A stretch of DNA of 64,000 nt, from positions 3,067,875-3,131,874 of the forward strand of contig NC_133300.1 in the NCBI RefSeq assembly GCF_005239225.2. The letters run 5' to 3'. The notes below the pieces were generated by a model, which did no database searches, had not been told where the DNA came from, and saw only the letters and a list, made by a program, of their open reading frames with translations. The translations under genes were made by a program, and so were the position numbers. This document shows positions 31,191-60,330 of this stretch, in pieces (position 1 is the first letter of the stretch; every line of letters begins with the position of its first letter). This DNA is from Populus alba (lineage: Eukaryota > Streptophyta > Magnoliopsida > Malpighiales > Salicaceae).

Positions 31191-31449
31191 TGTTAGAGTA
31201 TATTAAAGCATTGCTTAAGATCGTGACACTTGTCACGATCTCAATATAATAGATAGTTAGTTATATAACAATAGTTTGTTAAGTCTGTTATCAACAGATA
31301 TATAAACACTCAACTATCATGTTGTATTCGGTATTATGAAATAAGAACTCTTATGAACAATATACTCCTCTGCTCTTCTCTCTTCTCTCTGTTATTCTTT
31401 CTTTCTTCCTTTCTACAGAATTATATTAATCAATTGATACAGATTAACA
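31191..31449 (+). repeat. Copia1 5' LTR
   Basis: A 259-bp LTR with a TATA box TATATAAA at 31299-31306. A 22-bp inverted repeat (31219-31240, two 10-base arms around CT, arm GATCGTGACA) lies upstream of the TATA box. Confidence 0.95.
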
Positions 31450-31694
31450 TGGTATCAGAGCTAGTTATTGCTCACGCATGAAAATTTCTTGATCCTTTTG
31501 TTGCTTCCGCATTTTTCTGTTATTTTCTCTGCACTCACAGAGTGTTCTTCATATTTGGAGTACATATTGTTCTTGTACAACTCACAGAGTGTTTCAGTCA
31601 TATTGCTCTGCTGTGATCTTCATCTTTCTTTCTACAACTTGCACAGCAAGTGTTTGATATATTGTCTCATTCATGGATTAAACTTGAAATCCTA

Positions 31695-34600: not shown

Positions 34601-36279
34601 ACAAGTGGTGTTGTCCATTCCTCCACTTAATCTTCACCCAATGCAGACTCGAAGCAAGAATGGAATTATCAAAAAGAAGGCTCTCTTAGCCACTATACAG
34701 GTTTCTGCAGCCACTGATCTGCATTTGGTTGAACCAGCCACTTACAAGGCTGCCCTTAAAATTCCTGTGTGGCTCCAAGCCATGAAAGATGAAGTTCATG
34801 CATTACATACTCAAGGCACTTGGAGTTTAGTTTCCTTGCCAGCACACAGGAACCTCGTTGGCTGTAAGTGGATTTTTAAGGTCAAGAAACATTCTGATGG
34901 TTCTATTGCCAGGCACAAAGCAAGGTTAGTTGCTAAGGGTTTCAGTCAAGAACCTGGATTGGACTATGGGGAGACATTTAGTCCTGTCGTGAAACCTACC
35001 ACAGTCCGGTTAGTTTTGGCTCTTGCTGCACATTTCAATTGGTCTCTACGCCAGTTAGATGTCAAAAATGCATTTTTGCATGGCATTCTCCAAGAGGAAG
35101 TCTACATGTCTCAACCTCCTGGTTTTGAAGATCTCAATCATCCTCATCTAGTCTGTAAACTGCATAAATCTCTGTATGGCCTCAAACAGGCTCCTCGAGC
35201 TTGGAATGACAGGTTTACTCAGTTCCTTCTTTCTTTGGGTTTTGCAACCACGTACTCTGATTCTTCATTATTTGTCAAACATGCTGATCATGCAATTGTG
35301 GTGCTGCTTCTCTATGTGGATGATATCATTATCACAGGGAGTGTGTCTGCTGTGATTCAGCAAGTCATTAGTGCTCTTACTTCTGAATTTGATCTCACAG
35401 ATTTTAGGCTCCTTACATTATTTCTTGGGCATTCAAATTACTGGAACTGCTGCTGGTTTCTTTATGTCACAATCCAAATATGTTGAGGACTTATTAGTTA
35501 AATCTGAAATGAGTGAGGCTAAACCGTGTGATACTCCTTGTCTACCTTATCATCGACTCCTGAAAGACGATGGGGAGCCTTATCCAAATCCTCAACTATA
35601 CAGAAGTCTTGTAGGAGCTCTACAATACCTCACTTTCACTAGGCCGGATATTGCTTTCTCGGTACATCAGGTCTGCCAGTTTATGCAGAACCCTATGATG
35701 TCTCATTTTACTGCTGTTAAAAGAATCTTACGATACCTCAAAGGCACTCTGAAGTTTGGTCTCTCATATACTCGTGGCGATTTACAATTAAAGGCATTTA
35801 GTGATGCTGATTGGGCGGGGGATCCTAATGACAGGAGATCCACTACTGGTTTGGTGGTCTTCTTAGGTAACAATCCAATTTCGTGGTCCTCTAAGAAGCA
35901 ACAAACTGTTTCTCGATCTTCCACCGAAGCTGAGTATCGTGCCTTATCCTTCACCTCTGCTGAGTTGGATTGGATTAAACAATTACTAGCATTTCTGCAC
36001 ATTTCTTTGCCTGGTGTGCCTGTTCTATTTTGTGATAACCTGTCAGCTATTGCTTTGTCTTTCAATCCTGTTCAGCATCAAAAGACTAAGCATATCGAAG
36101 TTGATGTTCATTTTGTTCGCGAAAGGGTATCGCGTCAACAACTCTCAGTGCAGTTTGTGTCCTCCCAAGAGCAGTTTGCTGATATACTTACCAAGGGGCT
36201 GAGTGCTCCTCTGTTTCACACTCATTGTTGCAATCTCACGCTTGGTTCCTCACCGCGTGATCTTGCGGGGGGATGTTAG
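31695..36279 (+). CDS. Copia1 gag-pol polyprotein, one frameshift in RT
   Basis: The ATG at 31695 is the first credible start; the open frame before it begins only at a GTG. Visible domains: gag with LDESNYLNW; two CCHC knuckles (CQLCNSEGHTAPFC at about 319, CNICGRSNHTSWYC at about 342); aspartic protease LTDSGATNHM (about 450); GAG-pre-integrase LWHHRLGHP (about 587); integrase core (HTDLWGP, QTDGGGEY, YTPEQNGVAERKHR); RT with LYVDDIIITG (about 1208); RNase H with FSDADWAGD and STEAEYRAL; end at 36279. Near 35402-35405 a run of four T where three would keep the frame breaks the polyprotein; the downstream frame (35371-36279) is otherwise open. One lesion plus identical LTRs suggests a very young copy, a mis-call, or mobilisation by a helper copy. 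Confidence 0.9.
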
Positions 36280-36532
36280 AGTATATTAAAGCATTGCTTA
36301 AGATCGTGACACTTGTCACGATCTCAATATAATAGATAGTTAGTTATATAACAATAGTTTGTTAAGTCTGTTATCAACAGATATATAAACACTCAACTAT
36401 CATGTTGTATTCGGTATTATGAAATAAGAACTCTTATGAACAATATACTCCTCTGCTCTTCTCTCTTCTCTCTGTTATTCTTTCTTTCTTCCTTTCTACA
36501 GAATTATATTAATCAATTGATACAGATTAACA
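36274..36532 (+). repeat. Copia1 3' LTR
   Basis: Identical to the 5' LTR over all 259 bases by direct comparison. It is preceded by the polypurine tract and followed by the target duplication AAATT. Confidence 0.95.
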
Positions 36533-36901
36533 AAATTCACATTTGATTTAATGCTGGGTTTACGTCAGCATTGATTCCTTTCAGCATGCTATATTTGTTT
36601 GCTGTCTCCTCATCCATATTCTGGACATATATTCTCAAGGAGTCATTGGTTCCTGAACTTCTTAGAAAATATGCCTCAGCCTTAGCAGCCAATTCATTTC
36701 TGCATGAGTTGACATTACCATCAAGCAATCTCAACACCACATCCAATCTCTCCGTATCGCTGTCGAACTGCATGTCGGAGTCAAAAGATTAGAAAGAATG
36801 TGACAGTCGTGACAGTAAAGAGCTCATTAGAGTGAGAATCCTACAGCAAAACCAGGTTGAGTTGCTTCTTCTGGTGCTAGCATAAACTTGATAACATAAA
36901 C

Positions 36902-37140
36902 TAAAGAAAGCAAGAAAATTGACAGAGGAAGTTTGAAGAATAGCAGGGCAGACTTATTATTCAGTGTGTTTGCTACACTCCGTATACATAGTTTATATAG
37001 GAAAGTTCTTGTCTAAATAAGTAAACTGACAGACTAGCAACTAATATTTAGGACTTAATTACAACAATAACAATCAAACTAAATCTCTAAGATACTATTT
37101 ACAAATCAAGCTTTAATTGTTTTGATTCCGAATCTTAACA
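36902..37140 (-). repeat. Copia2 3' LTR
   Basis: A 239-bp LTR in minus orientation. It differs from its partner by one G/T and one A/G substitution. Confidence 0.93.
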
Positions 37141-37147
37141 CGCCCCC

Positions 37148-40100
37148 TCAAGCTGGAGCATGGATGTCCAAGGTTCCCAGCTTGCGCAGCAGATTATGAA
37201 ATAACGGGCTACCAAGAGGCTTTGTGAATATATCTGCTATCTGTTGTGTTGAAGGTACATAAATGGTCTTTATCAATCCTGATTGTATTTTCTCACGCAC
37301 AATATGATAATCAATCTCGATATGTTTTGTGCGTTCATGAAATACGGGGTTGGCTGTGATGTGTAATGCAGCTTGGTTGTCACAGTACAGGAGGGTTGGC
37401 TTCAAGTGTGGCACCTGCAAATCACATAGGAGTTGTTTAAGCCAAACCAACTCACAGGTAAGTGATGCCATTGATCTATATTCTGATTCTGCTAAAGAAC
37501 GTGATACCACCGACTGTTTCTTGCTCTTCCAAGATATGGGAGCTCCTCCAAGGAAAACGCAGAAGCCAGTAATAGATCGCCTGGTTGTTGGAAAACTTGC
37601 CCAATCAGCATCACAATACCCTTTCAACTGTAACTCTCCATGTGATGGAAATAAAATGCCTTGTCCTGGTGCCTGCTTCAAATATCGTAGGACATGGTGA
37701 GCTGCATCCAAGTGAGGTTTCCTTGGTTGCTGCATGAATTGGCTGAGAACGTGTACAGAGAAGGCAATGTCTGGCCTTGTGATGGTGAGATATAGAAGAC
37801 GGCCAACAAGGCATCGATATGGTGATGGATCATTGAGCAGTTCACCTTCTGAAGGGGTGAGTCGTTGGTTTTGTTCCATTGGAATTTTAGTTGGTCTTGA
37901 CCCAATCAAACCTGCATCTTTAAGTATATTAAGAGTGTATTTACGTTGGGAGATGGCAATACCTTGTTTGGAGTAGGCAACTTCAATTCCAAGGAAGTAC
38001 TTGAGATTGCCCAAATCCTTAATCCGAAAATGGTTGTGAAGAAACTTTTTCAGTTTTCCAACTATAGCAGTGTCATTTCCTGTGATGATCATATCATCAA
38101 CGTAGAGTAGTATTGCTGTAAAGGAAGCCCTTTGTACCTTAGTAAACAGAGAGTAATCTGCTTTGGATTGTTGAAATCCAAAGCTCTTGATGGCTGTGGA
38201 AAATTTTGAGAACCAATTACGTGATGCCTGCTTTAAACCGTATATGGACTTCTGAAGCCGACACACAATATTCGCCCCCTGACGAGGAAGGCCAGGAGGA
38301 GGCTGCATGTAAACCTCTTCATTCAAATCACCGTGAAGGAAGGCATTTTGAACGTCGAGTTGGTGTAAGGGCCAGTGACGAACAGCAGCAACAACAAGCA
38401 AGCATTTGAGAGTAACTAACTTGGCAACAGGGGAGAAGGTGTCTGTGTAGTCAAGTCCTTCCAATTGTGTGTAACCCTTGGCAACGAGGCGAGCTTTGAA
38501 CCGGTCGATAGTGCCATCAGAGTGATATTTAAGCTTATAAACCCATCTGCTCCCAATGGCACGTTTACCTGCTGGTAAGGGACATAATATCCAGGTATTG
38601 TTCAGTTCAAGAGCTGTTAATTCAGCTTGCATGGCATCCTGCCAGCGGGGATCAGAGGCAGCCTGCGCAAATGATGTAGGCTCACTGTGGGCAGAAAGGC
38701 TTGTAATGAAAGCACGGTGAGATGGAGATAAATGAGCATAAGAAACAAATTTAGATAAAGGATGGTGAGTACCTGAACGAGAACATGACGAGCCAGGGGG
38801 AAGCAAGGCGGCATGAAAGCAGTGATAATCTTGGAGGTGGGAGGGGCGGGTATGGGTTCGAGTACTTCGGCGTGGGAGAGTAGGCGATGTGGAAACAGGT
38901 GGTGATAAAGGTGGCTCAACAAGGCTAGGGATGTTGATAGGAGATGATGGTAGAGCATGGTTTGAGGGAGGAGAAAGCATAGGAGAGGAAAGTGTGTCAT
39001 CGTTGGAGGAGGGAATGGATAGTGTTTGAGGGGAAATAAGAGCTGATAAGGGTAAGCTGGAGGTGAAAGTGATTGGCTAATCGGGTAGTGTGCCTTGTAG
39101 TTGAGTAGAGAAGGGGAATATAGATTCATGGAAAGTGACATCTCGGCTAGAGAAGAATGTGTGAGTTGAGAGATCATAAAGGCGATATGCTTTTTGACCC
39201 AAAGGATAACCCACAAAAACACATTTACGTGCTCTAGAATCAAATTTGTGTGAAGGTGTAATAGTGGTGGCATAACAAAGACAACCAAAAACCTTCATGT
39301 GATGGTATGTAGGTATGGTATTGTGCAGCTTCTCATATGGTGAAGCTTTTGAAAGAATGGGTGTAGGTAAGCGATTGATGATATAGGCTGCAGTGAGTAT
39401 ACTTTTCCCCCCAAAATTGAAGTGGCAAACAAGCTTGGAAGCGTAGAGCGCGAGCAACGTTTAAAAGATGACGATGCTTGCGCTCTATGACACCATTTTG
39501 TTGTGGTGTGGCTGGACAGGAGTGTTGAAAGAGAATTCCTAAATCATTGAAAAAGGGTCGCATAGAAGTAAACTCACTCCCATTGTCTGCTCTCACACAT
39601 TTAACATTACATTGAAATTGTGTTTTGACAAACGCAATAAAGGACTTGAGTAAGGTTTGCGTTTCAGATTTAAGCTTCATAAGATGGATCCAAGTGTAAC
39701 GTGAGTAATCATCTACAATGGTTAAAAAATATCGAGCACCCGAGTGTGTATGTGTGCGATGAGGACCCCATATGTCATAATGGATAAGATCAAAAGATGC
39801 ATGTGAGGAAATAGAACTCATATTGAAAGGTAGTCTGGTTTGTTTTGCCATAGGGTAGATGCCACAATGCATAGGATGATGAATAGAAAAATTAGGAATC
39901 GTCTTAGATAAAAATTGTAATGGTGCAGTAGAGGGGTGTCCTAAGCGATAGTGCTATAAATCTGGGATGGTGGAAATGGTGTTGGCTTGAATTTTTGATG
40001 GTGGCTTGATAACAGTGTGCTCGGATAGATAGTATAAGCCATTATGCTCCTTCCCTAGGCCAATCATCTTCATCGTGTTTAGGTCCTGCAAGATACAGAA

Positions 40101-41402
40101 GTTAGGATGGAAAGTGATGATACAATTTAGGTCACGGGTGAGTTTACTGACAGAGAGAAGATTAACTTGAAAGGATGGTATGTGGAGAACATTCTTGACA
40201 CACAAATGTTGATTAACTTGTGCATTACCAACTGATAAGGTTTTTAAATGTGAGCCATCAGGTAAATGAACAATATCATGATGTGGTGTTTGGGATAGTA
40301 AATGAGAGGAAGATGATATATGATCGCTAGCACCGCTATCAATGATCCATGCTTTATGACATTTAGAAGTTTGTTTACCTGTCACATTTCCACAGAACTG
40401 ATTTTTACCAAGTAATGCCCTTATTTGATTGTATTCCTCTTCTGTAAACTGAAGAAAGGTCTGATGTCCGCTTGCTGCCGTGTTGGGTTTGACTGCGTTG
40501 CTGGCATTATTGACTGCAAGCCGTTTGTGTCGATTTGGTGGTTTGATTTCTCTGCCATGAAATTTATGTCCTGGTGGAAATCCAATGATATAATAGCAAC
40601 GATCAACTGTGTGTGTATCTCCCTCATAGTGTGAGCAAAATAAAGATTTGCCCTTGCTGTTTTGTAGCCGTGTGGATTGTCTATTCTCTGTGATCCTTGT
40701 GTTCCTTTTCACATTCATGGCATGAACGGGGCTGTTAGTGGCTTCAGTGAGTTGCCGTTGTTTTTCCTCTTGAAGCAGGAGTGAATATATCTTCCTGATG
40801 TTAGGGAGTGGCTGCATCAACAAGATCTGTCCACGGACAGCAGAATACGTATCATTCAGCCCCATGAGGAATTGGAAAATTCATTCATGTTCTTCTCTTT
40901 CAGCAATCTGTTTTAGTCCTGCACAGTTACATAAAGGTGGATCATTGTATGATCCTAATTCATCCCAAAAGGACTTGAGTGCTGAATAATAAGCTGTTAT
41001 GGTTTGTTGTTGTTGACGACGTTCAACGATCCCTCGTTTGAGCTCAAATATGCGTGAGAGATTTCCTTGTGAGAAACGCTCACTGAGATCTGCCCAGACA
41101 TCAGCAGCAGTATCAGAGAAGATTACAGTATTTGTCAAGGATGGACTGATGGAGTTGAGGATCCATGACTTTACGATCTGATTGCATCGTCTCCAAGCTC
41201 TATATTTAGGATCTGTCTCTGAAGGTGCTTTTAATGTGCCATCAATGAAACCAAGCTTATTCTTGGCCTCCAGAGACATCATCATGGCACGGCTCCATGT
41301 TGCATGATTATCACCTTCCAAAAGTTGGTTGACAATGGCGTGATTGATGTGATCTGAGGGATGGATGTAGTATGGATCATAAAAATCCATTGTTTCTGTC
41401 AT
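37148..41402 (-). pseudogene. Copia2 gag-pol, broken by three nonsense codons and one frameshift
   Basis: The start codon is the ATG at 41402 (MTETMDFYDPYY). Gag, protease (IDSGASDHIS), integrase (NGSEF, TPQQNGVIERKHRHLL), RT (LLYVDDMIITGND) and RNase H (GYCDADWASF) are readable in order. Breaks: an in-frame TGA at 40881-40883 in gag; a TAG at 39954-39956 where the family has Trp in the LWHxRLGHP motif; a one-base shift in a G/A run near 39400-39412 in integrase; and a TAG at 39077-39079 between integrase and RT. From 39076 to 37148 the RT-RNase H frame is open. Confidence 0.9.
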
Positions 41403-41465
41403 GGTGATGTTGGCGGAAGCAAAATAATGAGCAGTATTAGGTGTTGAACCACTGCTCTGATACCA

Positions 41466-41704
41466 TAAAGAAAGCAAGAAAATTGACAGAGGAAGTTTGA
41501 AGAATAGCAGGGCAGACTTATTATTCAGTGTGTTTGCTACACTCCGTATACATAGTTTATATATGAAAGTTCTTGTCTAAATAAGTAAACTGACAGACTA
41601 GCAACTAATATTTAGGACTTAATTACAGCAATAACAATCAAACTAAATCTCTAAGATACTATTTACAAATCAAGCTTTAATTGTTTTGATTCCGAATCTT
41701 AACA
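41466..41704 (-). repeat. Copia2 5' LTR
   Basis: A 239-bp LTR in minus orientation, next to the primer binding site on its left and the target duplication on its right. Confidence 0.93.
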
Positions 41705-42138
41705 TAAACCCCACAGTCATATCTGCATAGAGAGAAATCACATTTACAATGTGTTTATAGTGTAAATTTACTTAATGTTAGGCAATAAAATCAAAATGCT
41801 GTTAGCCAAAAATATGCTCTTACCTGTTGGTTTGTTGTGGGACATTCGGTGATCTGTCCATGGAAAAACTTGCAAATGACCAGCCATCAGGGTAGTTCTG
41901 TTGTATATCATCTACTGAATGGTGGGATTTCTCAAAAAAACCAAGGAAGAAATTTGCAGGAAAAGCCATGATGACCACGGCTGAAGTTCAGACTACTACT
42001 GTTGATAAACTACCTGCTGTTGATAACCTGCCGCCTACTGTTAATGTTGCTCACTCTAGCAGCACTGGTAAGGAAAATACATTCTCTACAATTACTAAAG
42101 ATAATAATTAGATAATTGATACAGGTGCATCAGATCAC

Positions 42139-45384: not shown

Positions 45385-45719
45385 TGTTGACATGATTAAT
45401 TACGATTATGTGATCTGATTAATTATAGGAACTAGATCAAATATTATTTTGTAATCTGATTATTGCCTATTCAGATCAAATCTTGTATAGGCAGTAATTA
45501 TGTAAATCTGATCAATTATAGAAGTCATATCAAATCTTGTACAAAATTACTATACTTTCTTATAATAGGATTGTTACCTATTCAGAGCTCTGCTTATTCA
45601 AAGCACTGTTTATTTAGGGCACTGTCTATTCAGAGTTCTGTCTATATATTTCCTCCTACAAGGAGAAGAATACAATTGAAAAATTAAGCTAGTATACATT
45701 ATTGTTCTCTACACTATTA
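45385..45719 (+). repeat. Copia3 3' LTR
   Basis: The LTR starts TGTTGACATG right after the polypurine tract and contains several TATTCAGAG-type repeats. Its right end is placed near CTACACTATTAA because sequence homologous to the unit A flank begins a few bases later. The end is approximate. Confidence 0.7.
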
Positions 45720-45730
45720 AGACAATTTTT

Positions 45731-46322
45731 TTTTTCTCTACCTACTTAGCTGTCTTTGCATCCTTCTTTCCAAATCCTCTAAATAATAATATTATTTCTC
45801 AAGATAGTCTTCGCATCCTATCCAGCCATTGCTTTCCAGGAAGTGGCGTAATGCACATGCCCCAAGAGGAAAAAGTACACAGACATAACGCTCTTCCTTT
45901 GAAGCTTATATTGGAGAAGCATGCACATGCCTCCTTTTATTATTTTAATGGAGTGTTATTTTCAAGATTTGAATTAGACCACTTGAATATTATTGAAAAA
46001 CTGTTTAACATAAAGATCAAGCTGTTATACTTGCAGGCAATATTGATGTCTTTGCGGTTTAATATATGGTTATGTGATTGGCTACTAACCCTTAATTATA
46101 TTGGCGTGGCTGAAAGGGAAAACATTTGGCCCAACAGTTCTAATGTAAATCTTTCATGAAAACCAGCAACGAGTTCCTATAGCAGAAAATATGCGTACAT
46201 GTTCCTAGAAAGAATTATTGCAAGACATTAATCAGGAGAGGCAAGGCAAGTATGGACTGTTCTCTGTAATCAATTTTAATCCCTAGAGACCAAACACACT
46301 ATGTTGTTACAGCAATTGAAAT
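45731..46322. repeat. Downstream-flank repeat, copy B
   Basis: This is the sequence between the Copia3 LTR and the stop codon of the composite gene. It is nearly identical to 30600-31190, and its left part also matches 60110-60300. It probably contains the 3' UTR of the composite gene. The empty Copia1 target site (TTGAAATTCAC) lies at its right end. Confidence 0.85.
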
Positions 46323-47736
46323 TCACATTTGATTTAATGCTGGGTTTACGTCAACATTGATTCCTCTCAGCATGCTATATTTGTTTGCTGTCTCCTCATC
46401 CATATTCTGGACATATATTCTCAAGGAGTCATTGGTTCCTGAACTTCTTAGAAAATATGCCCCAGCCTTAGCAGCCAATTCATTTCTGCATGAGTTGACA
46501 TTACCATCGAGCAATCTCAACACCACATCCAATCTCTCTGTATCGCTGTCGAACTGCATGTCGGAGTCAAAAGATTAGAAAGAATGTGACAGAGTCATCA
46601 CAGTAAAGAGCTCATTAGAGTGAGAATCTTACAACAAAATCAGGTTGTGTCGCTTGTTCTGGTGCTAGCATAAACTTGATAACATAAACCCCACAGTCAT
46701 ATCTGCATAGAGAGAAATCACATTTACAATGTGTTTAGAGTGTAAATTTACTTAATGTTAGGCAATAAAATCAAAATGCTGTCAGCCAGAAATATGCTCT
46801 TACCCGTTGGTTTGTTGTGCGACATTCGGTGATCTGTCCACTGAAAAACTTGCAAATGACCAGCCATCAGGGTAGTTCTGTTGTATATCATCTTCGAATA
46901 GGACATCCAGGATGGCCAACTATTTTTTTAAATATCATAACATGATTGGTGTTAAAGAATAATATAAAACTAATAATTGGATTTCACCTTAAAACCAAGT
47001 TGTCAGAAGTTTGAATGAAAGAAATAGTTTTTAGACAAGTGGAAGGAAGCATAAATAGAAGGAAAGATATAGTTAAATTAGCAGACAAGACAAGGTAGCT
47101 CGAAGGGTGCTAGCACTTACCATGTTAGGCAATCTCTTGTCGACGGAACTGCCACTAGATTTAGCTAATGAGTCCCAAATCTCAACAAATTGCTTCTTTA
47201 TATGCAGAACAAATAGATAGAAGTGTCTTCTTTCCTTGTCAAAGACAGGAACATACATCTGCAACCATATGTAGTTAACTGGTTGTCACCTTTCAAATGG
47301 GTCAACTAAGCATGGGAATGCATGAATTGGACTTGACGAAATTCAGACTTTACCTTCTCACAGCCGAACAGAGCAGACATATAATTCTCCCTGAACATGT
47401 GTTTCTTTGCAAAAGAGATACACTCGGATGTATCATATGCGTACTCCTGTTTTACGAATGCGTAAGTATTTCTAAGGAAATTATGTCTTGCAAGTAGGAC
47501 TACATGGTAAATTGAATCGAACCAATTATACTATATGGAATTAAGATAGAGGAAAAATTACCGAAAAACAAATTGGAAGGTACCAATTTATAGAACCTTT
47601 CTTCTTCCTTCTCTCAGCTACGGTTAGGGCATCAGACATGATAGAAATGACGTTATCATCAAGGCACGTCTGTGGTCTTAGTGTGCACAATTCACTCCGA
47701 GTCAAATAATTATGGTTGCAATGAACAACAATCTCA
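46323..47736 (-). other. Exons 5-10 of the composite gene: Ulp1/SENP C48 protease domain
   Basis: Six exons (175, 93, 138, 116, 70 and 231 nt). They begin with the Ulp1-type entry LTRSELCTLRP then DDNVIS, and continue with NWYLPICF, a catalytic-His strand RRHFYLFVLHI (His followed by Phe where most Ulp1 enzymes have Trp), EIWDSL for Asp, QQTNGYDCGVYVIKFM for Gln and Cys, and the C-terminal exon ending NPALNQM. The domain is complete by motif. Plant genomes also hold Ulp1 domains inside MULE-type transposons, but I saw no transposase or TIRs around this one. Confidence 0.85.
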
Positions 47737-50700
47737 CTGACAAAAGACAAGGTTCACAATACAAGAAGTTAATTTTTTTTTTTTTAAATACATATAGTAA
47801 CTTGGAAGAGGGGAGGAAATCTAACCTTTCATCCGAAGATGAGTTAAAAATGTAGTTGATTAACTTTAAATCCTCTGGACTCGTAGATTTGATCACCTTA
47901 AATGGACCTGCCTGGTGTCTAGGCATTTGATGTTCTGAATTTCCCTGTTGCTTTCTTGAACTAGACATTAAGCGATCTATAGTCTCGAAAAGTGAAGGTG
48001 AAAATATGTTGTCGATTAACTCAAAATGCTCTGGGCTGTCCGCTTCGATCACCATAAATGGAACAGGCTGATCTTTAGGTGTTCGCTGTTCTGCTTCTCT
48101 CTTTTTCTGACAATTTCTCAAGTGTTTAAGTAGATTGGTAGTTCCCCTAGTGCTTTCACCTCGATACCTCTTCTTACAATGTTTACAGATGGCCCATAAT
48201 GCACCATTGTCATCTTTCAACTTATAGAAGTCTTTCCACGCTTTGGATCTCGATTCTTTGGAACTTGGAGGTTTTATTGGACGAGGCCAACGGGGAGTTT
48301 TGGGCAATTTGGTGCCAGTAGTTTGTCCTTTGACTTCCTTATAAGAGATAGCCAAGTAATGTTAGATAATTTTGGGCATAATATACGCGTAGAATATGAT
48401 CAATAGAGCAATTCACCAAGTTATTATAGAGACCGAGATTGAGTTAAAAAAAGGTACCTGCTTACCATGCCCATCACTCAAACAGCTATCCAATGTAATG
48501 ATTATATCTTTTGTATTCAAACCGCCAATATCTGAAAACCCCTGTGAGCTGCCAGAAACAATAGATGCTGTTTCATCAGACTTCCCTGCCTTCTCAATCC
48601 CAGCTCTATTACCCCAAAGTCTCCATGAATTCCCACAGTTTTTGGTCAAGGTTGATATGATTTCCTTCATCAATACCAACTGTTCTGAAAGTTCTCTAGT
48701 TTCCAGAGGGAAAACAAGTTCTAATATATAATCAACATTACTCATGTAGGTGCTTGCAAGCTTAATTGCAAGAACAGCATGAAGGCCAAACTCCCATGCA
48801 ACATGAAGAAATGGATAATCGATTGCATCAAGGTCTGCAACGTCAGGGACAAATTGCATCTTTGATTGCAGTGCTTTCCCAGCTACCCCTTGCCCTTCCT
48901 CAAGAGGAGGTCCTTCAACACATGCCTCAACGAAACCTTTCATTCCTACATCATTAACAAAGCAAGCAGTATCCACGATGTGCAGCCTAAATCTCTCTCT
49001 TGAATTTGTATCTTCCTCTCTCCTGTCTGAAATCCATGTAAGAGCCATCGGCAGATCATGTACATGACATACATATTCTAATATGTCAAATATCTCAGCT
49101 GAAGCAGCGATCTGGTTAATTGAGAAGCACTGCAACAAGAATAATATGAACTTTTAATTGAGGTACAATAAAACACCGAAGTAAAGCACTTCTATAATAA
49201 CACCTATGAAATTTTATTTTGTTTATGCGGTGCAAACGGCTTCTTCTACCTCCATGGAGATTATCAAAATCTAAATCTAAAAATTCGCTAAAAAAGAATG
49301 TACATAGATATTAAAAATTCAATTAATGATTTTGTATTATTTATTAACACTCTCTCTCAAGTTAAAAGCTACTTGAATTATTTATTATTAAAACTATGAT
49401 ATCATGTTAATCACCCAAAATTTTGAGGAGGATGAACTCTAATAAATAATTTTATATTATTTAATAACTTTAGAAGACAATAGATTAAGTGAGGGTCCTT
49501 ATTTTACCAAATTGCCATTATATTTTTCTCAAAAGAATCATCTCATCGAAACGTTTAAACTTATTAGTTGAGATCTCAAGATATAATCCTCCTCAAGTGA
49601 GAACCCTTGAAGCTTGAGTTCAAGATATATAATTTATATTATTCTCTAGTATGCACTCCTTGAGTAAAAGCCATTGGACTTTGAACTCAAGATATGATTT
49701 ATTCTCTCAAGTGAATACTCTTAAACCTTGAAATTTATACAGACCAGTACTATATTATTCTTTATTTTTATCAAATAGAATTGAGACCCCGTTTATTTGC
49801 TGTAAAGTAGTTTCTTTTTGGAAAGTGAATTTAAGGAAAGTGAATTATTTTCCGATGTTTGGTGGTGTAATAGAAAATAAGTTGGAAAACACTTTCTAAT
49901 GTTTGGTTATATCATGGAAAATGAGCTGCAAAATAACTTATTAATGTTTTATTTTTCTCAAGTTTATTAAAATAATGAGGAATAAATCTTACAAATTAAA
50001 AAGTTGAATGAGAATGAAATTGAAAAAAAAATATAATTTCATAAATTATCTCAAATAAAATAAATAATAATCAAAATAATAGAGATTAAATCTAAAAAAT
50101 AAAAAAAAATGAAAGATGAAGAAATTATAATAATAATAATTAACATTTCTTAAATTATTTCATATAAAATAAGTAACAATCAAAAGAATGAGGACCAAAT
50201 TTGATAGATAAAAAAATTTCAATAAAAAAATGATAAGGAAAAAGCAAATAAACAATTATAAAAATGAGGACCAAAGTTAATATAAAAATTAAATTTTAAG
50301 AGATGAAATTAAAAAATAAATATTGAAAACAAAATATATATAGCAATCAAAAGTTTGAGGACCAAATTTGATAATTAGCAAATAATATAACATTTCTAAA
50401 ATTTTCACAATTTCCGGAAAGTGTTTTCCATCCAAATTTTCCAGGAAAACACTTTCCTGGAAACCAAGCCAAATTTTTCTTTAACTAGAAAGTGTTTTCC
50501 GTTGACCAACTTTTTTAATGGCAAATAAATACAGAAAAGTTTGAAAAATGGTTTTTCAGAAATCACTTTTCAGGAAACAAACATAGCCTGAGATGTTGAG
50601 ATTTGAATTTGTAAGTGTTTCATCATCAAGACTGATTTGACATCATGTCAAAGAACCATCTCACCTAAAATTTAAGCTGTTAGATGAGATACCAAGATAT

Positions 50701-52358
50701 AATTTATATTATTCTTCAACACATTTTATTCTAACTTAATCCTATTGATAGCTTTCTTTATAATTTTTTCATTAGAATGCAAATATGATTTAAAGCCATA
50801 TTGGCTCATTTAATGATGCAATCTAATGGAAACTATCAATCTGACGAAGGGGACAAATTTGACCAATACACAATAAAATAAAGTGGTTTTTCCATTATGA
50901 CAGAAATAGAGAAAACGATACCTCTGTCGACCGCATACTTCCTCTCATCATGATAGTAGCATCATCTGCGTCGTCTTCATGGGATACAGAATTGCTTGCT
51001 TTCCCGGACTCCCGACTGGCATCTTGTGCCATGTTAAAACTGCCCAGCATAGATCCTAGGTCTCCTATCTCCATGCTTATTGACTCTGCATAGTCAATAT
51101 TATTATTACCGCAGCCAAAAAACATGCATTTCAATAATTACTTCATGAAACCAAACTATATTTAGTACATTAAATAACTAGGTTTCTTAATCAGTAGAAA
51201 CTCTGATAGATGTAATTAATTGTAGGAAGCAGTGTGCTCACCATCGTGAGTTAGGTCAGGTTTCCAAGCCGAAGAGATAGCGAAAGGGTAATCGAGCCGG
51301 CAGAGCAGGGGACGCCGATTCTTTTCTTCTATTCTGTATTCATTAGTCTTGTTATTAAAAAACATAGTTTCACGGAACAATATGCGAGCAGGATGAAAAC
51401 CAGCTCGAAACAGTCTGTCTCGCCACTGAGCCCATGTCTCATGTCGCTCAACATGGCCGATGCCCTCTTCAGCCACCACTTTGCTGATCTGGCGCCTAAA
51501 ATTCCTCTCCCATAGAACTCTATAATCTTCAAGCTTTTCAAATTTATCCTCCTCGAGGGAGTCAAACATAACAGAGTAATACTTGAATGATTTGCCGAGG
51601 CGGTCCATCAAATCGGGACTGTTATGATCCGCTTCCTGTTCGACAATTACCATGACCTCTGGTTTGAGGTCCTTCAATTTTGACATCACCAGATTGAATA
51701 TTGCACTGGGTACTGCAAGCAATTTGTGTAGTTCAAATTCCCATTCCACCACCACCGCCTCTCCCTTGCTTCTTCTGCCGAGTTGGAGAGTAGCTCCAAC
51801 TATCTCACCCGCACTATTAGCAAGATATTCTCCATACTCGAAATCAATTTGATGGTTTTCAGCCGTTTTAGTGAGGATCAAACTAATTAACTTGAGGTAC
51901 CCAAGATGTTTTGATAATTTTGGCCCGACGAAAGTTATCCGGTATGACAACCGGCTACCAAGCTCGCTTGCAAGCACTTTCATCAGAGTAGCATGCTGCC
52001 AGATATCCACCGCAACGGAAAAGTCAATAATGTGAACTTGTTTTTTTCCACGCAGTGCATCGTAGAAGGGAGGCATGATGGTGTAGCTAGCAAACGAGAG
52101 GAAAGGTTCGAATTTGCAACCGAGGATGTCCATATCTTCTCTGAAACGTACCAACGGCATAGGATTTCGAGGATACAGTTTATACAGTCGCCGAACAAGA
52201 GCTTCAGCGAAGTATTTGACAACTTTTCTTGTGGCTAAATTGGCTTCGGTGGAACTTTGGAGTCCGATTTCCTTGAAGAGTGAATCTGCATGTTTCAGAT
52301 CACCATCTTCAATTGCCTGAGCGCATTCCATCAATTTTTCAAGAAGGGGAGGGGCCAT
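46323..52358 (-). CDS. Composite gene: GRAS, NLP-type GAF-like exon, BED zinc finger, Ulp1/SENP protease (10 exons)
   Basis: Exons: 52358-51242, 51085-50922, 49129-48458, 48337-47826, 47736-47562, 47446-47354, 47258-47121, 46919-46804, 46702-46633, 46553-46323. Every intron is GT-AG and every junction keeps phase, giving 3288 nt and about 1095 residues. Domain order: GRAS 1-372 (VHIID at 108-112, SAW at 363-365); linker 373-427; NLP second GAF-like region 428-651; BED zinc finger about 685-727 (Cys702, Cys705, His723, Cys727); C48 protease about 823-1095, with His923, Asp940, Gln992 or Gln993, and Cys999 in YDCGVYV. Known family roles: GRAS proteins are transcriptional regulators, NLP N-terminal regions sense nitrate, BED fingers bind DNA, and Ulp1 enzymes cleave SUMO. 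The joint function is unknown. The ATG at 52358 is used because the earlier in-frame start is only a TTG. Main alternative: two or three neighbouring genes or pseudogenes that happen to be in phase. Confidence 0.62.
47826..48337 (-). other. Exon 4 of the composite gene: BED zinc finger plus internal repeat
   Basis: A 512-nt exon. WKDFYKLKDD is followed by CKHC, a GTTNLLKH segment and C after HLRN, the C2HC arrangement of BED fingers of hAT transposases and their domesticated relatives. After the finger, a 23-residue motif starting PFMVIEADSPE (744-766) recurs as PFKVIKSTSPE (796-818), each ending in LI and IF. Start and end phases (0 and 2) match the neighbours. Confidence 0.82.
48458..49129 (-). 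other. Exon 3 of the composite gene: NLP-derived GAF-like region
   Basis: A 672-nt exon homologous to exon 3 of the NLP gene at 10727-9969. Both start with a Cys codon at phase 0 and share VCHxHxLPxALTWI, DTACxVND, GFVxAC, EEGQGxAGKALQS, FGLHAVLAIKLASTY ([18 protein letters not shown]) and YILE. The first GAF-like half (exons 1-2 of NLP), the RWP-RK domain and the PB1 domain are absent. The donor is set at 48458/48457 (CAG|GTACC); GTAAGC a few bases upstream is a second possible donor but would break the phase. Confidence 0.85.
49787..50588. mobile_element. 802-bp MITE in intron 2 of the composite gene
   Basis: Ends related as CCGTTTATTTGCTG (left) and, reverse-complemented, ATGTTTGTTTCCTG (right), flanked by TGAGA at 49782-49786 and 50589-50593. 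Subterminal segments carry GGAAAGTG/CACTTTCC motifs. The body has alternating AGGACCAAA blocks. It has no ORF. It is better preserved than its relative at 15085-16015. Confidence 0.68.
50922..51085 (-). other. Exon 2 of the composite gene: linker of unknown origin
   Basis: A 164-nt exon that joins the GRAS exon in phase 1 and the NLP-derived exon in phase 0. It encodes an acidic, Ser-rich stretch (SISMEIGDLGSML, then SVSHEDDADDATIMMRG). I recognise no family in it. It may be a mutated copy of another NLP or GRAS exon, or intronic sequence that became an exon. Confidence 0.6.
51242..52358 (-). other. Exon 1 of the composite gene: complete GRAS domain, DELLA type without DELLA motif
   Basis: A 1117-nt exon. 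Motifs in order: LMECAQAIEDGDLKHAD and VKYFAEALVRRLYKLYP (first leucine-rich region), VHIIDFS (108-114), FEYGEYLANSAGEI, VEWEFELHKLLAVPSAI, VEQEADHNSPDLMDR, YYSVMFDSLEED (PFYRE area), RNFRRQISKVVAEEG and RHETWAQWRDRLFRAGF, ending in ISSAWKPDL. The sequence is closest to the GAI/RGA branch, but the N-terminal DELLA/TVHYNP region for gibberellin-receptor binding is missing. Without splicing the frame would stop a few codons after 51242, so a short separate GRAS protein is the main alternative. Confidence 0.88.
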
Positions 52359-52432
52359 TTTTAGCAATAAATGAAGCTGTGAATTTATCTATCGTTTTCT
52401 GGTACATGGTTTTATGCAGGTAACTATTTGCC

Positions 52433-52439
52433 TTTATAG
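52433..52439 (-). promoter_or_regulatory. Likely TATA box of the composite gene
   Basis: CTATAAAG on the minus strand, about 75 bases upstream of the ATG at 52358. That would put transcription start near 52405 and leave a short 5' UTR. Found by pattern only. Confidence 0.45.
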
Positions 52440-53693: not shown

Positions 53694-54137
53694 TGATGTA
53701 GAACCAGTTGCAGCTTGAAGAATAGATTGCAAAAGGGAAGTCTAACTGCAGCAGAATCAGCAACAACAACTCATGGCAGAGGCAATGCTGAAGAGACAAA
53801 TCAGGAGTTGCAGCTGGCTTTTCCATTCTATTTTAGGACTTTCAATTTACGTTTTAAATATCAGAATTTAATTACCGTCAGGACTCTATTATATTTTTCC
53901 TATTTCAGTATTTCTTTCCTAAACAGTTTAATCCTAGTTGAACTAGGATGTGCAACTTATATAAAGACTGCTTATTTTCATTGTAAGGCACCTTTTAATT
54001 TTGATAATAAACCTTCTCTTTGAGAATTCTATTCTCTAGCTCGTGGAATCGGGCAGTTCTTGTGTTTGTGGATTCGAACAATTAGTGTCTTTCAAAGCAG
54101 ACGGTGATCTGTTTTCTTCAAAGCTTCCACTACGTCA
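53694..54137 (+). repeat. Gypsy element 5' LTR
   Basis: A 444-bp LTR with a TATA box TATATAAA at 53958-53965 and the polyadenylation-like AATAAA near 54005. Confidence 0.92.
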
Positions 54138-54169
54138 GTTCGTATCAGAGTAGGCTTAATCCTGATCAG

Positions 54170-57100
54170 ATGGCGAATGCATGAAATGAAAGAGAAATCC
54201 TTGGCGGCGATGAAAGTGAGGATAATTTGGTTACAGGAGTAGAATTCAGGAATTTCCAACATGTAACACAACAAACATTACGAGAGATCCAGGCAGCTCT
54301 TGCTAGGCTAATAGCAGGAAATCATCAAAGAGGTAATGATCCTCCCGATCGTCACCCCTACAGAAACAGAACTGACGTTATGTTTGAACGTTATCCAAGG
54401 ATACCACAAAGGCAAACAAACTATGAAGATACATTGAGCGAGGATGAAGATGAAGCTGAAACCATGCTTCAGGGTAATCGCAGGGGAAACCAAAAAGAGC
54501 CAGACCGACAAACATTTCGCATGAAGATGGATTTACCCAGTTTTAATGGCCAACTTCAAATTGAAGGATTCCTTGACTGGCTGGTATTAGTTGAATGATT
54601 TTTCGATTATATGGACACCTCTGAAGACAAAAAGGTCAAACTAGTTGCATACAAGCTCCTAGAAGGAGCCTTTGCATGGTGGGAGCAACTACAAACCATA
54701 CGATTGCGACAAGGAAAGGGGATGGTTCAGACATGGGCTAAAATGAAACGACTACTGTGATCTCGATATCTACCCCCAGATTATGAACAAACTCTGTTTA
54801 AACAATATCAAGATTGCAGGCAGGGAAGTAGAACTGTCGAGACTTTCCTAGAAGAGTTCCACCGGTTATCATCTCGAAATAACCTGCTGGAAAAAGAGGC
54901 ACAACAAGTGGCTAGGTTTGTTGGGGGACTACGTTGGACTATACAGGATCGAGTGGCAATGCAAACAATATATACCTTAACTGAAGTAGTAGCACTAGCT
55001 ATTAAGGTGGAAACCTAACTAGACAGATCAAGGATTGCAACCGGAGCAAGAAGTTTGGTGGACAATAATTGGACTACAATAAACAAAGGAAAAGCTCTCA
55101 TAGCACAACCATCCTTCTCTAACACTGTGAATAACAATGGAGCGCCCACAAAACCAGTCCCTATTGCACCACCAGAAATAGCACCCCGCAATCCTTATGC
55201 TCGTTCGGGAGCTGATAAATGCTATAGGTGTGGACAACCGGGACACCGTTCCAACCAATGTCTAAGGAGGGGCACTGTAAACTTAGTGGAACCAGAAGAA
55301 GACTGCAGACGCGAGGCAGACAAAAATGAAGCATTCTATGCATATGAAGAGGAAGAGATAATAGGCAGTGATGAAGGAGAACTTTTATCACATTCTCTAG
55401 TGGTCCAACGACTGTTGTTGATGCCAAAACGAGAAAAGCCATCCCAACGACACAAGATATTCAGAACCAGATGCACTGTAAACAAAAGGGTTTGTGATAT
55501 TATTATCGGCAGTGGTAGTAGCGAGAACATAGTATCAAAGGTCATGGTTACCAAACTAGGGTTACAAACTAGAAAGCACCCTGCCCCGTATAAAATTGGA
55601 TGGATCAAACGAGGAAGTGAAGTGAAGATAACTGAAACCTGTCACATTAAATTCTCAATTAGGAAGAGCTACATAGATGAGGTTATATGTGACATAGTAG
55701 AAATGGATGCCTGCCACATAATTTTAGGACGCCCTTGGCAGTATGATGTGGATGCTCCTTACAGGGGTCGTGATAACGTGTATGTCTTCATGAAGGGTGA
55801 CCTAAAAGTCATACTAGGACCCATAAAAGAAGGGCTCACCAGCAGCGAGACGAAGATAGAAAAATCTAGTACTGTTAATGGACGACGAAAAATTCATGGA
55901 AGAAGCTAAGGAAGCCTAAGAGATTTTTGCGATAGTAGTGGGAGGAGAAGTCGGCAGGGAATCCAATGACATTCCACGAACACTAATGTCTTTACTGGAA
56001 GAATTTCAGGAAATTATACCCATGGAATTGCCTAATGGGTTACCTCTCGTACTGGACATACAACACCAGATTGATTTTATGCCAGGAGCCAGTTTACCTA
56101 ATCGTCCACATTACCGGATGAACCCCAAAGAAAGTTAAAGCCAGGTTGAAGAACTGATAAAAAAGGGTTTGGTACAAGAGAGCATGAGTCCTTATGCGGT
56201 TCCAACATTGTTAGTTCTGAAGGAGGATGGCAGTTGGTGCATGTGCATTGACAGTCGGGCAATCAATAAAATCACTATCAAATATAGATTCCCCATCCCT
56301 CGGTTAGAAGACATGTTGTCTGGATCCAAAGTCTTCTTGAAAATTGACTTGTGCAGCGAGTACCATCAAATTCGAATCAGACCAGGCGATGAGTGGAAGA
56401 CTACTTTTAAAACGAAGGAGGGATTATACGAATGGTTAGTAATACCATTTAGACTAACCAATGCACCCAGTACCTTCATGCGTTTCATGAACCAAGTATT
56501 AAAACCTTTTACAGGAAAATTTGTTGTGGTATACTTTGATGATATATTAATATATAGTCAAACCCAATCTGACCATGTTGCGCACCTGAGAGAAGTACTT
56601 CAAATCCTACAGCAAAATAAGTTGTATGTTAATCTGAAGAAGTGTAGCTTTATGACCAGCAGCTTATTATTTTTGGGATTCATAGTAAGTGCAGATGGAA
56701 TCAAGGTGGATGAAGAAAAAATTCGTGCCATTAGAGAGTGGCCAACTCCACAAACGGTAAGTGAGGTCCGTAGTTTTAATGGCCTGGCAAAATTTTACAG
56801 GTAATTCGTGAGGGACTTTAGTCAAATTATTGCACCCATTACTGAATGCATGAAAAAAGGGGAAATTCCATTAGGGAGAAGAAGCATAATAGAGTTTTAT
56901 GCTGATTAAAGATAAACTATCCTCCGCCCCAATCTTAGCACTACCAGATTTTGACAAACTGTTCCAGGTAGAGTGCGAAGCTTCTATTGTCGGCATTAGT
57001 GCTGTGCTATCCCAAGACGGCAGACCAATCACATTTTATTGTGAAAAACTCAATGAAGCTCGCCGGAAATGGTCTACCTATGAGCTGGAACTATATGCTG

Positions 57101-58612
57101 TTTTTCGTGCCTTGAAAGTCTGGGAGCACTATCTAGTGCAACGAGAACTTGTATTATTCAGCAACCATCAAGCATTAAAATTTCTCAACAGCTAGAACAA
57201 TATCAATCGGATGCATGCTCGCTGGATCTCTTTCATACAGCGCTTCAACTTCTCCTTGAAACACAAAGCAAGTTGTTTGAATCGGGCAACTGATGCCTTA
57301 AGCCGGCAAGCACTACTGTTGGTCACCCTACAAACTGAGTTCACAAGATTTGACTACCTTAAAGAATTATATGCAACCGATGAAGACTTTCAGGATGTTT
57401 GGGAAAAGTGTGAAGAAGGGACCTCATTAGGCGGGTTACATATCCAGGAGGGATATCTCTTTCGTGGCAACCAATTATGCATCCCCAGGAGCTCACTACG
57501 AGCTCAGATAATCCATGAATTACACAGTGGAGGCTTGGGCGGACACTTGGGACGAGATAAAACCATAGCTTTGGCTGAAGAGAGGTATTATTGGCCGCAA
57601 TTGAAACATGATATTGGAAATCATGTTAAGAGATGCCCCATCTGTCAAGCTACCAAAGGCCAGTCCCAAAATACTGGTTTATACATGCCTCCAACCATTC
57701 CAACAGCACCATGGGAGGATCTCTCCATGGACTTTGTCTTAGGCCTCCCACGCACCCAACGCGGATTTGATTCTGTATTCGTAGTAGTCGACATGTATTC
57801 TAAAATGACCTACTTTATTGCTTGCAAAAAGACCGTGGATGCAATTCATGTCGCAAATCTATTTTTTAAAGAGATTGTTCATCTACATGGGGTTCCCAAA
57901 TCCATCACTTTCGACAGAGACACCGAATTCTTAAGCCATTTTTAGAGAACTTTATGGCGGCGATTTGACACATCCCTGAACTTCAGCAACACCAGCCATC
58001 CCCAGTCCGATGGCCAAACAGAAGTAATGAACCACACTCTTGGGAACCTCATCCGTTGTCTTTTTGGCATAAAGCCAAATAGTGGGATGTTACTCTTGCT
58101 CAAGTTGAATTTGCCTATAACAATATGCTCAACCGGTCTACAGGGAAGACACCATTCCAGATTGTTTACTGTTGTCTACCACACCATGCCTTAGACTTGG
58201 TTCCTCTGCCTAAACTACCTGGTTTAAGTATTTCAGCTGACAATATGGCCGAACAGATAACAACTATTCAAGACCAAGTGAGGCACAATCTAGAGACATC
58301 CAACGCCAAATATAAAGCAGCAGTTGATAAGAAGAGAAGAGCTCAAGTATTTCAAGCAGGCAACCTCGTAATGGTTTACTTGCGCAAAGGACGATTGTCT
58401 GTCAGTACCTACAATAAATTGAAAGACAAAAAATATGGACCTTTCTAGGTTCTACACAAAATCAATGACAATGCCTATATCATCGACCTTCCAGCCGACA
58501 TGGACATTTCTCCTACTTTCATTGTCGCAGATTTGTATGCATATCATCCCCCTGACAAGGCGTCTTCACACATAACTCACTCGAGGTCGAGTTCTTCTCA
58601 GGCAAGGGAGAT
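54170..58612 (+). pseudogene. Gypsy gag-pol, many nonsense codons
   Basis: The gag start ATG at 54170 is followed by TGA at codon 5 (54182-54184). Gag continues past further stops after 54598, near 54760 and near 55018, then shows a CCHC knuckle CYRCGQPGHRSNQC (about 55220). A retroviral-type protease follows with DIIIGSGSSENIVS, where the usual DTG/DSG is altered to GSG. RT (56169-56804) has [11 protein letters not shown]. RNase H is at 56899-57195. Integrase has a zinc finger ([26 protein letters not shown]) and a core [10 protein letters not shown]. Two frameshifts lie near 56850-56870 and 58060-58090. No chromodomain was seen. Many stops are explained by C-to-T or G-to-A change of Arg, Gln or Trp codons. 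Confidence 0.9.
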
Positions 58613-59056
58613 TGATGTAGAACCAGTTGCAGCTTGAAGAATAGATTGCAAAAGGGAAGTCTAACTGCAACAGAATCAATAACAATAGCTCATGGCAGAG
58701 ACAATGCCGAAGAGACAAATCAGGAGTTGCAGTTGGCTTTTCCATTCTATTTTAGGACTTTCCATTTACGTTTTAAATATTAGAATTTAATTACCGTCAA
58801 GACTTTATTATGTTTTTCCTATTTCAGTATTTCTTTCCTAAACAGTTTAATCCTAGTTGAACTAGGATGTGCAGCTTATATAAAGACTGCTTATTTTCAT
58901 TGTAAGGCACCTTTTAATTTTGATAATAAACCTTCTCTTTGAGAATTCTATTCTCTAGCTCGTGGAATCGGGCAGCTCTTGTGTTTGTGGATTCGAACAA
59001 TTAGTGTCTTTCAAAGCAGACGGTGATCTGTTTTCTTCAAAGCTTCCGCTACGTCA
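58613..59056 (+). repeat. Gypsy element 3' LTR
   Basis: A 444-bp partner of the 5' LTR. About 16 differences, mostly A/G and C/T. Confidence 0.92.
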
Positions 59057-59689
59057 GCTACCTACTAGCACCAATTGGTGCTGCCTAAGTCAACAAAGTG
59101 AGCACAAATTCGGTGCCACTTGCAACACCAATTGGTGCTCTTGTCTTTTGCATGACAAAGGCAAGGAAGCTTGCCTATAAATAGGCAGTGCATCCTTGCC
59201 TTATATACTTCATAAGAGAAAAACAAGAGAGAAGAAGAGGAGAGTGAGAGAGGGAAAGTAATCCCACAAAGTTGTGAGGTATTTGTGAGAGAGTAAGTGA
59301 GGTGTTTTCTCCTAGTAATAGAGAGATTCTTAGTTGTTCTCCTATTAGTTGAGAGAGGTTGTAATTCCCACATTACTTAGTAAAATCCTTATATACTTGC
59401 CCGTGGACGTAGCCAAATTGGATGAACCACGTAAATTCTTGTGTGTCTAATTTCTTATTTTATCTTATCCCTTACCTTTTATTTTGTCAGGTTTGCATGC
59501 TAGTATCCTAATAGAATCGGTTCTACAATAACCAAATCATTTGAGATTACAAAAGAAGACTAAATTGTCAAAGAACTCGAATTCATGATTGCTTAATTAC
59601 TAAGGTTTTGATATCATGTTAAAGAATTATCTTAGTTTAATAGCTTAAACTATTAAGTAAAATTCAGGATGTAATTTATATAATTATGT

Positions 59690-60330
59690 AATAGAGATGT
59701 TTCTTGATTTAATTTTTTATGGCATAATACTCCCGCTAGCCCCCCTCTTGATTAAGTTAACACCCATCATATATGAGTTCTTCGCCCAATTCACACTTTA
59801 CTTGAAATTTCCTTTTTTTTTTAAAAAAATATTGTGTCCCTTCAAATATTTGACTTTTAAGAAATATTTCTCTACAAAGAAAGTGAGGTATTTGAAAGTA
59901 TAGTTGCGGCTGCTTTTCAAAATATTTTTCACTTGAAAATACATCAAAATAATATATTTTTTAATTTTTTTAAAATTATTTTTGACATCGGCACATCAAA
60001 ATAATATGAAAAAATAAAAAATATTAATTAGAAGCACATAAAAAAATACAAAATTTTCAAAACATTTTTGAAATGCAAAAACAAATAGGACTATATGCTA
60101 TCAAGACATTTTTTTCCTCTCTCTCTACCTACTTAGCTGTCTTCGCATCCTGCTTTCCAAATCCGATAAAGAATATTATTATTTCCCAAATTAACATTCG
60201 CATCCTATCCAGCCATTGCTTTCCAGGAAGTGGCGTAAGCCGTAATGCACATGCCTCAAGAGGAAAAAGTAAACAGACAACGCTCTTCCATTGATGCCTC
60301 CTTTTTATTAATGGCAAGTCTTCTCTAACA
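59690..60330. repeat. Downstream-flank repeat, copy C
   Basis: The parts at 59690-59882 and 60108-60330 match the unit A flank at 30404-30590 and 30600-30810 (TGAGTTCTTCGCCCAATTCAC, CTACCTACTTAGCTG, CAGCCATTGCTTTCC). They are separated by an inserted copy of the dispersed MITE-like repeat (about 59885-60105). A composite unit would be expected to its right, but nothing of it was found before the Tat LTR. Confidence 0.75.

Follow-up and report, generated by a model that had tools for sequence, protein, structure and literature searches.

A single reading frame on the minus strand of a 64,000-nucleotide stretch of Populus alba DNA (here, the window; C17:3067875-3131874) joins, in this order, a GRAS domain, a GAF domain of the kind found in NIN-like proteins (NLP), a BED zinc finger and an Ulp1-like protease domain of family C48. 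The composite, at 46323-52358, is very probably one protein-coding gene, and we lean towards its expression as one protein. The reading that we prefer, on balance, is that of a derived member of a GRAS-linker-GAF-BED-hAT family that carries an Ulp1 tail, forms one gene and has a role in SUMO biology, as proposed below.

The ten exons splice into 3288 nucleotides (1095 residues and a stop; 124.92 kDa) with zero internal stops; each of the nine introns has GT-AG borders, and the phases agree throughout. The start ATG stands in AAAAATGGCC, and TATAAAG lies 74-80 bases ahead of it. The parts, in order of transcription, are:

52432-52438, minus strand: TATAAAG 5′ of the start codon, identified by eye
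51242-52358, minus strand: exon 1, DELLA-like GRAS domain, residues 1-372, phase-1 donor
50922-51085, minus strand: exon 2, acidic linker, phase 1 in, phase 0 out
49130-50921, minus strand: intron 2, 1792 bases
48458-49129, minus strand: exon 3, NLP-type GAF domain, begins on a Cys codon
47826-48337, minus strand: exon 4, BED zinc finger (48247-48113), then, near 47965, the putative junction with the sequence leading into the Ulp1 tail
46633-47736, minus strand: exons 5-9, Ulp1-like (C48) domain with H923, D940, Q993 and C999
47562-47736, minus strand: exon 5
47354-47446, minus strand: exon 6
47121-47258, minus strand: exon 7
46804-46919, minus strand: exon 8
46633-46702, minus strand: exon 9
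46323-46553, minus strand: exon 10, C-terminal tail and stop

Splicing bears out what a preliminary description of this DNA had proposed, namely ten exons on one strand with GT-AG borders and correct phase at nine junctions and about 1095 open residues; its outer coordinates are correct, and exon 4 is placed at 48337-47826. The TATA box that it put about 75 bases 5′ of the start is the TATAAAG at 52438-52432, and the His, Asp, Gln and Cys that it had the protease keep are all present. It also called each domain complete, which is right for GRAS and GAF and less so for C48. Pfam recognised, each above its cut-off, GRAS at residues 6-366 (E 1.9e-63; 215.1 bits, cut-off 27; positions 2-374 of 374), GAF_NLP at 428-594 (E 2.2e-47), zf-BED at 682-726 (E 4.5e-6; 27 bits, cut-off 20.6), with the zinc ligands kept (CKHC...H...C in sequence), and Peptidase_C48 at 900-1009 (E 1.5e-13; 51.5 bits, cut-off 20.7). 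The nearest solved relatives of the GRAS part are the DELLA proteins RGA and DELLA 1 (203 bits for RGA against 73 for SCARECROW), and those of the protease part are SENP2, SENP1 and Ulp1. The relation to gibberellin and nitrate families suggested in the preliminary description is thus supported by sequence, through RGA, DELLA 1 and the NLP-like GAF exon; the protease function that it suggested we infer.

Two short motifs were noted in these exons. Exon 3 (49129-48458) has an H-x-L, present as HDL, before LTW, which presumably recalls the nitrate-contact stretch of NLP7. Exon 4 (48337-47826) holds a repeated motif, PFMVIEADSPEHFELIDNIFSPS / PFKVIKSTSPEDLKLINYIFNSS, at residues 744 and 796, whose hydrophobic-acidic core we take to resemble a SUMO-interacting motif.

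The arrangement recurs across the window's own genome, a 416-Mb assembly, which served as the search target. Comparison of 86 of its 114 GRAS matches (those on contigs with a GAF match) with all 64 GAF_NLP matches gave ten GRAS matches followed by a GAF match within 2.2 kb on the same strand, where 0.02 would be expected by chance; two further GRAS matches lie 2.9 and 3.1 kb from GAF matches already counted. Eight of the ten pairs are 461-773 bases apart, with a linker exon inside the gap at the modelled ones. GRAS, linker and GAF exons were modelled at eight of the ten loci (the window copy, a sister copy, C13, C16a, C16b1, C16b2, C7a and C7b); the relatives' models are exons placed by hand at chosen matches from the same low-scoring GRAS group, not full gene predictions, and the set does not extend to the C7c linker, to the C7 GAF at 878354 or to the other pair on C13 (10095116). 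In all eight the GRAS-linker junction is in phase 1 and the linker-GAF junction in phase 0; counting a gene on C4, the linker has equal phases at nine of nine modelled loci. The linkers measure 164, 164, 128, 128, 128, 122, 143, 98 and 221 bases (the last on C4), that is, six different lengths, all 2 mod 3. Because the GRAS/linker/GAF exon pattern recurs at seven modelled loci besides the window, the exon join is not due to chance, and an assembly error or chance join of unrelated exons is ruled out.

At three of these loci, C13, C16a and C16b2, the frame continues through BED into a hAT body, giving 1216, 1277 and 1297 residues free of stops; the hAT assignment rests on Pfam for the whole of C16b2 and for the BED-hAT exons of C13 and C16b2, and on 90% identity to C13 for C16a. 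At C7b the BED frame stops right after the finger, in a locus-level reading that places the BED part outside the model. Because the BED finger leads into hAT in three open relatives, the base family is a putative GRAS-linker-GAF-BED-hAT host-transposase fusion, with open fused frames and conserved junctions in the genome sequence. Given this base form, the BED finger of the window composite is most simply the transposase's own. The predicted architecture is conserved enough in parts for a real gene family.

The GRAS-GAF join looks old. That the GAF exon was captured recently from the NLP gene inside the window is ruled out by the synonymous divergence (dS) between the two GAF exons, which is 1.18. 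The NLP GAF pair of C7 and C17 differs by a dS of 0.144, and C7 and C17 composites by 0.7-1.1; the join would therefore be older than the C7/C17 NLP duplication, if rates are alike.

The Ulp1 tail appears to have come from close by. A hAT search of the genome returned 76 matches, 18 of them with at least 50% identity; all of these 18 but one, a fragment at C13:10094217, lie on the strand of a GAF match and no more than 4 kb downstream of it. Among the remaining 58, four were examined for a nearby GAF match, and none had one. At 3.15-3.60 Mb of C17, NLP-type units carry GAF, BED and hAT in one frame (794-849 residues open at five GAF matches, 734 and 603 at the others). In the 3.157-Mb unit Pfam also found the hAT body (RNase-H and dimerisation regions), and in the one array unit run through Pfam RWP-RK and PB1 were not found. 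An active hAT element as the source of the array was rejected, since 17 of the 18 hAT matches sit behind GAF matches. The units extend from C17:3155986-3158382 up to 3.60 Mb, and Ulp1 exons lie behind both of the units that were read. A search with the window Ulp1 gave 90 exon-level matches, all on C17 at 3.10-3.60 Mb, a 0.5-Mb array. One of its units, L031, matches the 3′ part of the window gene:

46307-47965, minus strand: two adjoining blocks, DNA 94% identical to the Ulp1 part of array unit L031 (C17:3586300-3591900)

In L031 the hAT frame stops, and about 340 bases later begins the match to window positions 47965-46307, which runs from mid-exon 4 through the 3′ end. The window gene thus resembles a GRAS-GAF-BED head to which the Ulp1 part of an array unit has been attached. 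It looks as if the hAT body was lost and the BED exon joined in frame to array-type Ulp1 exons, the Ulp1 tail being apparently a later local replacement from the neighbouring array, in an order of events that we infer. The Ulp1 form of the family looks young and weakly constrained. The preliminary description had read the four-domain frame correctly and missed both the multi-locus family and the array origin of the Ulp1 tail.

The sister composite, at C17:3177405-3171928 and 57 kb from the window copy, retains the ten exons and stays open over 1097 residues (125.99 kDa). Intron 2 has 1792 bases in the window copy versus 1035 in the sister, and the two align with a 795-base gap. Exon 1 is far closer between the copies (dS 0.017) than exons 2-10 (dS 0.070), which suggests gene conversion of exon 1.

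We used codon models to estimate omega, the ratio of nonsynonymous to synonymous substitution (dN/dS), across the family. It was 0.58 for GRAS (12 sequences), 0.44 for GAF (9 sequences), 0.43 for hAT (5 sequences) and 0.56 for the linker (8 sequences), with twice the log-likelihood difference from omega 1 at 96, 95, 119 and 4.3, respectively; the omega-1 runs used a fixed kappa of 2, and the comparison is therefore not a strict one-parameter test. C4, C15 and a remnant on C17 (C17z) are among the GRAS sequences; the GAF and hAT sets each include one array unit, and the GAF set also includes the window NLP. Its stop excluded C16b1 from the GAF alignment, and C7c, which carries an insertion, entered the GRAS set only. 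These results show that the GRAS, GAF and hAT parts are under purifying selection family-wide. Between window and sister copies, dN/dS is 0.65 over exons 2-10 (one-sided p 0.04) and 0.42 over exons 5-9 (one-sided p 0.03). Over 950 aligned bases, their introns (intron 2 excepted) differ by 7 indels, six of which have lengths not divisible by 3, whereas exons 2-10 (2.2 kb) have no frame-breaking indel against about 14 expected from the intron rate; even at 3 indels per 950 bases the probability of zero is 0.003. Under simulated neutral substitution, residues 374-1068 stayed without a premature stop in 1.9% of 5000 runs. The composite tail is weakly constrained. The preliminary description named absence of the domain order from relatives, combined with neutral dN/dS, as what would refute it; the data do not refute it, since the GRAS-GAF-BED order recurs with a family dN/dS below 1, although the full order with Ulp1 occurs in two open copies only, at a weak dN/dS of 0.65 for exons 2-10.

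Several findings weigh against our reading. The omegas are family averages that do not reach the window branch itself, and some close pairs are near neutral (GRAS of C13-C16a 0.98, of C16a-C16b1 1.35). Between window and sister, exon 4 has a dN/dS of 0.91, exon 10 one of 0.80 and the linker, with six changes, one of 1.35. Open composites with Ulp1 are known here from only two copies, which are similar, and a stop ends the sister 24 residues ahead of the window copy's end. The family includes damaged copies, C16b1 with one stop and C7c with an insertion (an element) in the GAF exon. In the protease, the Peptidase_C48 match is partial (positions 73-181 of 217). Residue 846 is Cys in the window and in L031, and Trp in the sister and the 3.157-Mb unit. 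Residue 991, near the catalytic Gln, is Ala in the window and Pro in the sister, L031, the 3.157-Mb unit and a decayed copy within the window. After the catalytic His comes Phe, in place of the Trp of SENP1 and SENP2.

One alternative is that the gene is a relaxed, partly dead relic, perhaps still transcribed, whose Ulp1 fusion has no function and which is set to decay like the copy next to it. That neighbouring array copy, at 30.6-41.9 kb, is broken by two young long terminal repeat (LTR) elements; the damage to C16b1 and C7c, the weak constraint in exon 4, exon 10 and the linker, and the changed Trp and Pro near the active site point the same way. However, a relic does not readily account for zero frameshifts in 2.2 kb of exons, two open copies and a dN/dS of 0.42 in exons 5-9, and we regard it as unlikely.

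A second possibility is that two adjacent genes have been joined on paper: a single-exon GRAS gene, which would end where exon 1, read on, meets a stop in frame, and a downstream GAF-BED-Ulp1 gene with its start at an ATG of exon 2. Left unspliced, exon 1 would end 15 residues past the SAW motif, and an end shortly after that motif is the ordinary one for GRAS proteins. Exon 2 does hold an in-frame ATG (MEIGDLG, also in the sister), linkers at other loci have in-frame ATGs at other places, and intron 2 of the window copy is long (1.8 kb). Yet at six of the eight modelled loci the GRAS-GAF gap is just 465-773 bases with the linker exon inside, and equal linker phases at all nine, with every length 2 mod 3, are hard to reconcile with separate genes; we consider this explanation distinctly improbable. 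Scarcely credible, finally, is a decoy or mimic of pathogen targets, in which the family would gather integrated-decoy domains (GRAS, BED, Ulp1) for no enzymatic use: one paper lists zf-BED and Peptidase_C48 among the domains integrated into nucleotide-binding leucine-rich repeat (NLR) proteins, zf-BED also in P. trichocarpa, and GRAS-domain proteins among effector targets (PMC4759884), but no NLR domain was found in the proteins scanned with Pfam (nearby NLR genes were not searched for), and array expansion by itself is weak evidence.

We return to the composite as a family member with an Ulp1 tail. Most likely it is a regulator of DELLA-like type, tethered by BED and resembling a deSUMOylase, or else a relaxed form of such a regulator. 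The BED finger would anchor the protein on DNA or chromatin. Regulatory partners would be bound by GRAS and GAF, as they are in DELLA and NLP proteins, and SUMO on these partners would be removed or bound by the Ulp1-like domain. The two Trp at the altered positions (846 and the one after His) presumably line the substrate tunnel of SUMO proteases; given these changes, SUMO cleavage by the window copy seems less probable than its absence, and genuine catalytic activity of the domain is somewhat doubtful. OTS1 is an Ulp1-type protease, and the DELLA segment is the part of DELLA proteins that is read by GID1. DELLAs are SUMOylated, and OTS1 removes the SUMO in trans, leading to GID1 binding and DELLA degradation, as part of the text of PMC6759571 reports. 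Because OTS1 deSUMOylates DELLAs in trans, GRAS/DELLA-type complexes would be the likeliest substrates. Since the GRAS part is without the DELLA segment, hormone-triggered degradation of the composite itself would not be expected.

A second GRAS-Ulp1 gene, L023, lies on the minus strand of C4 (6822000-6831999). A hand-placed eight-exon GT-AG model gives 718 open residues with GRAS, linker and C48; its C48 domain covers positions 3-211 of 217, is closest to SENP1 and can be aligned to the window Ulp1 only near the catalytic motif. A DELLA-like GRAS thus adjoins an Ulp1 domain twice, with different proteases, which fits a link of the DELLA-OTS1 type made in cis. That a DELLA-like GRAS scaffold was fused twice, independently, to unrelated Ulp1-type proteases, to give a self- or partner-deSUMOylating regulator that is BED-tethered in its C17 form, is improbable. 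If true, it would be a Rosetta-stone case, with a trans-acting pair (DELLA and OTS1) merged into one protein, and two independent GRAS-Ulp1 joins would indicate a selected link of GRAS regulators with SUMO removal. The C17z locus (L025, C17:21008000-21017999) has GRAS, a linker-like stretch and, at its C-terminal end, what remains of an Ulp1 part.

Among the matches listed, titles and abstracts gave no description of a GRAS-GAF-BED-hAT/Ulp1 family or of such fusions. In a P. deltoides GRAS survey, the longest GRAS protein is PdeGRAS83, with 1096 residues and 125.53 kDa (PMC13297757), a size near those of the window model and the sister; that it is the same gene is not confirmed. The words BED, hAT, GAF and peptidase are absent from the main text of that survey, and GRAS, hAT and BED from the accessible part of PMC12062965. 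Surveys that count GRAS matches alone would class these genes as ordinary GRAS members. If the composite is expressed, a GRAS regulator lineage would have been rebuilt through exon shuffling and transposase capture. Its tail types (hAT, BED alone and Ulp1) exist side by side in one genome, and each rebuilding step is therefore testable.

The other features of the window are:

8302-13198, minus strand: coding segments of an NLP gene (RWP-RK, PB1; GAF_NLP exon 258 bits), by Pfam and genome search
28677-29045, minus strand: N-terminal GRAS fragment, 46% identical to exon 1
30580-31190, minus strand: 3′ flank of the decayed copy, 96% identical to 45714-46323
31191-36532, plus strand: LTR element, 259-base repeats 100% alike, Copia type by eye
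36533-36901, minus strand: further piece of the decayed copy, with the remainder of exon 9, intron 9 and exon 10; 96% identity
36902-41704, minus strand: LTR element, 239-base repeats 99% alike, Copia type by eye
41700-41913, minus strand: decayed copy, with exon 8 in part, intron 8 and the beginning of exon 9; 97% identity

The element at 36902-41704 sits in the decayed copy just 3′ of the catalytic Cys codon, and that at 31191-36532 at its stop-codon end; from about 41914 the copy borders element sequence. The dN/dS between the window gene and this copy was set aside, the comparison having no outgroup and only about 130 codons. Directly upstream of the gene, at 53694-59057, is another LTR element, of Gypsy type by eye, with 445-base repeats 96% alike. 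At 59658-60297, stretches resemble the 3′ flanks of composite copies (78-84% identity); no gene body to go with them was found alongside, and they are perhaps the remnant of a further unit.

A scan of bacterial genomes gave no relative, as expected of a plant gene. With DELLA proteins (RGA, GAI) the composite shares the GRAS domain, at 35-39% identity to four DELLA-motif proteins of the same genome; the loci L003, L006, L007 and L008 show DELLA in the start region, and VHYNP is also found in the last three (the printed start of L003 ends before that region). In contrast, the N-terminal DELLA and VHYNP motifs are not present in the window composite, which starts at GRAS and carries the extra GAF, BED and Ulp1 parts. 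With NLP proteins it shares a GAF_NLP exon that starts on the same Cys codon behind AG, and ends on the same kind of border, as that of the window NLP (10730-9933; 37% identity to composite residues 427-668); Pfam found only GAF_NLP in it, with no RWP-RK and no PB1. With hAT-derived host genes and host-transposase fusions, of the DAYSLEEPER type, it shares the BED finger. Its family members C13 and C16b2 also have the hAT body of RNase-H-like and dimerisation regions, of which Pfam found neither in the window composite; the host part of the latter is GRAS plus NLP-GAF. With the SUMO proteases Ulp1, SENP, OTS and ESD4 it shares the C48 domain and the His-Asp-Gln-Cys set, and differs in partial profile coverage, in the changes of W to C and HW to HF, and in its position behind regulatory domains. 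The C4 gene, modelled without GAF or BED, has a SENP1-like Ulp1 that aligns with that of the window only around the catalytic motif, and shares with the window composite a GRAS exon and a linker exon of equal phases, followed by an Ulp1 domain.

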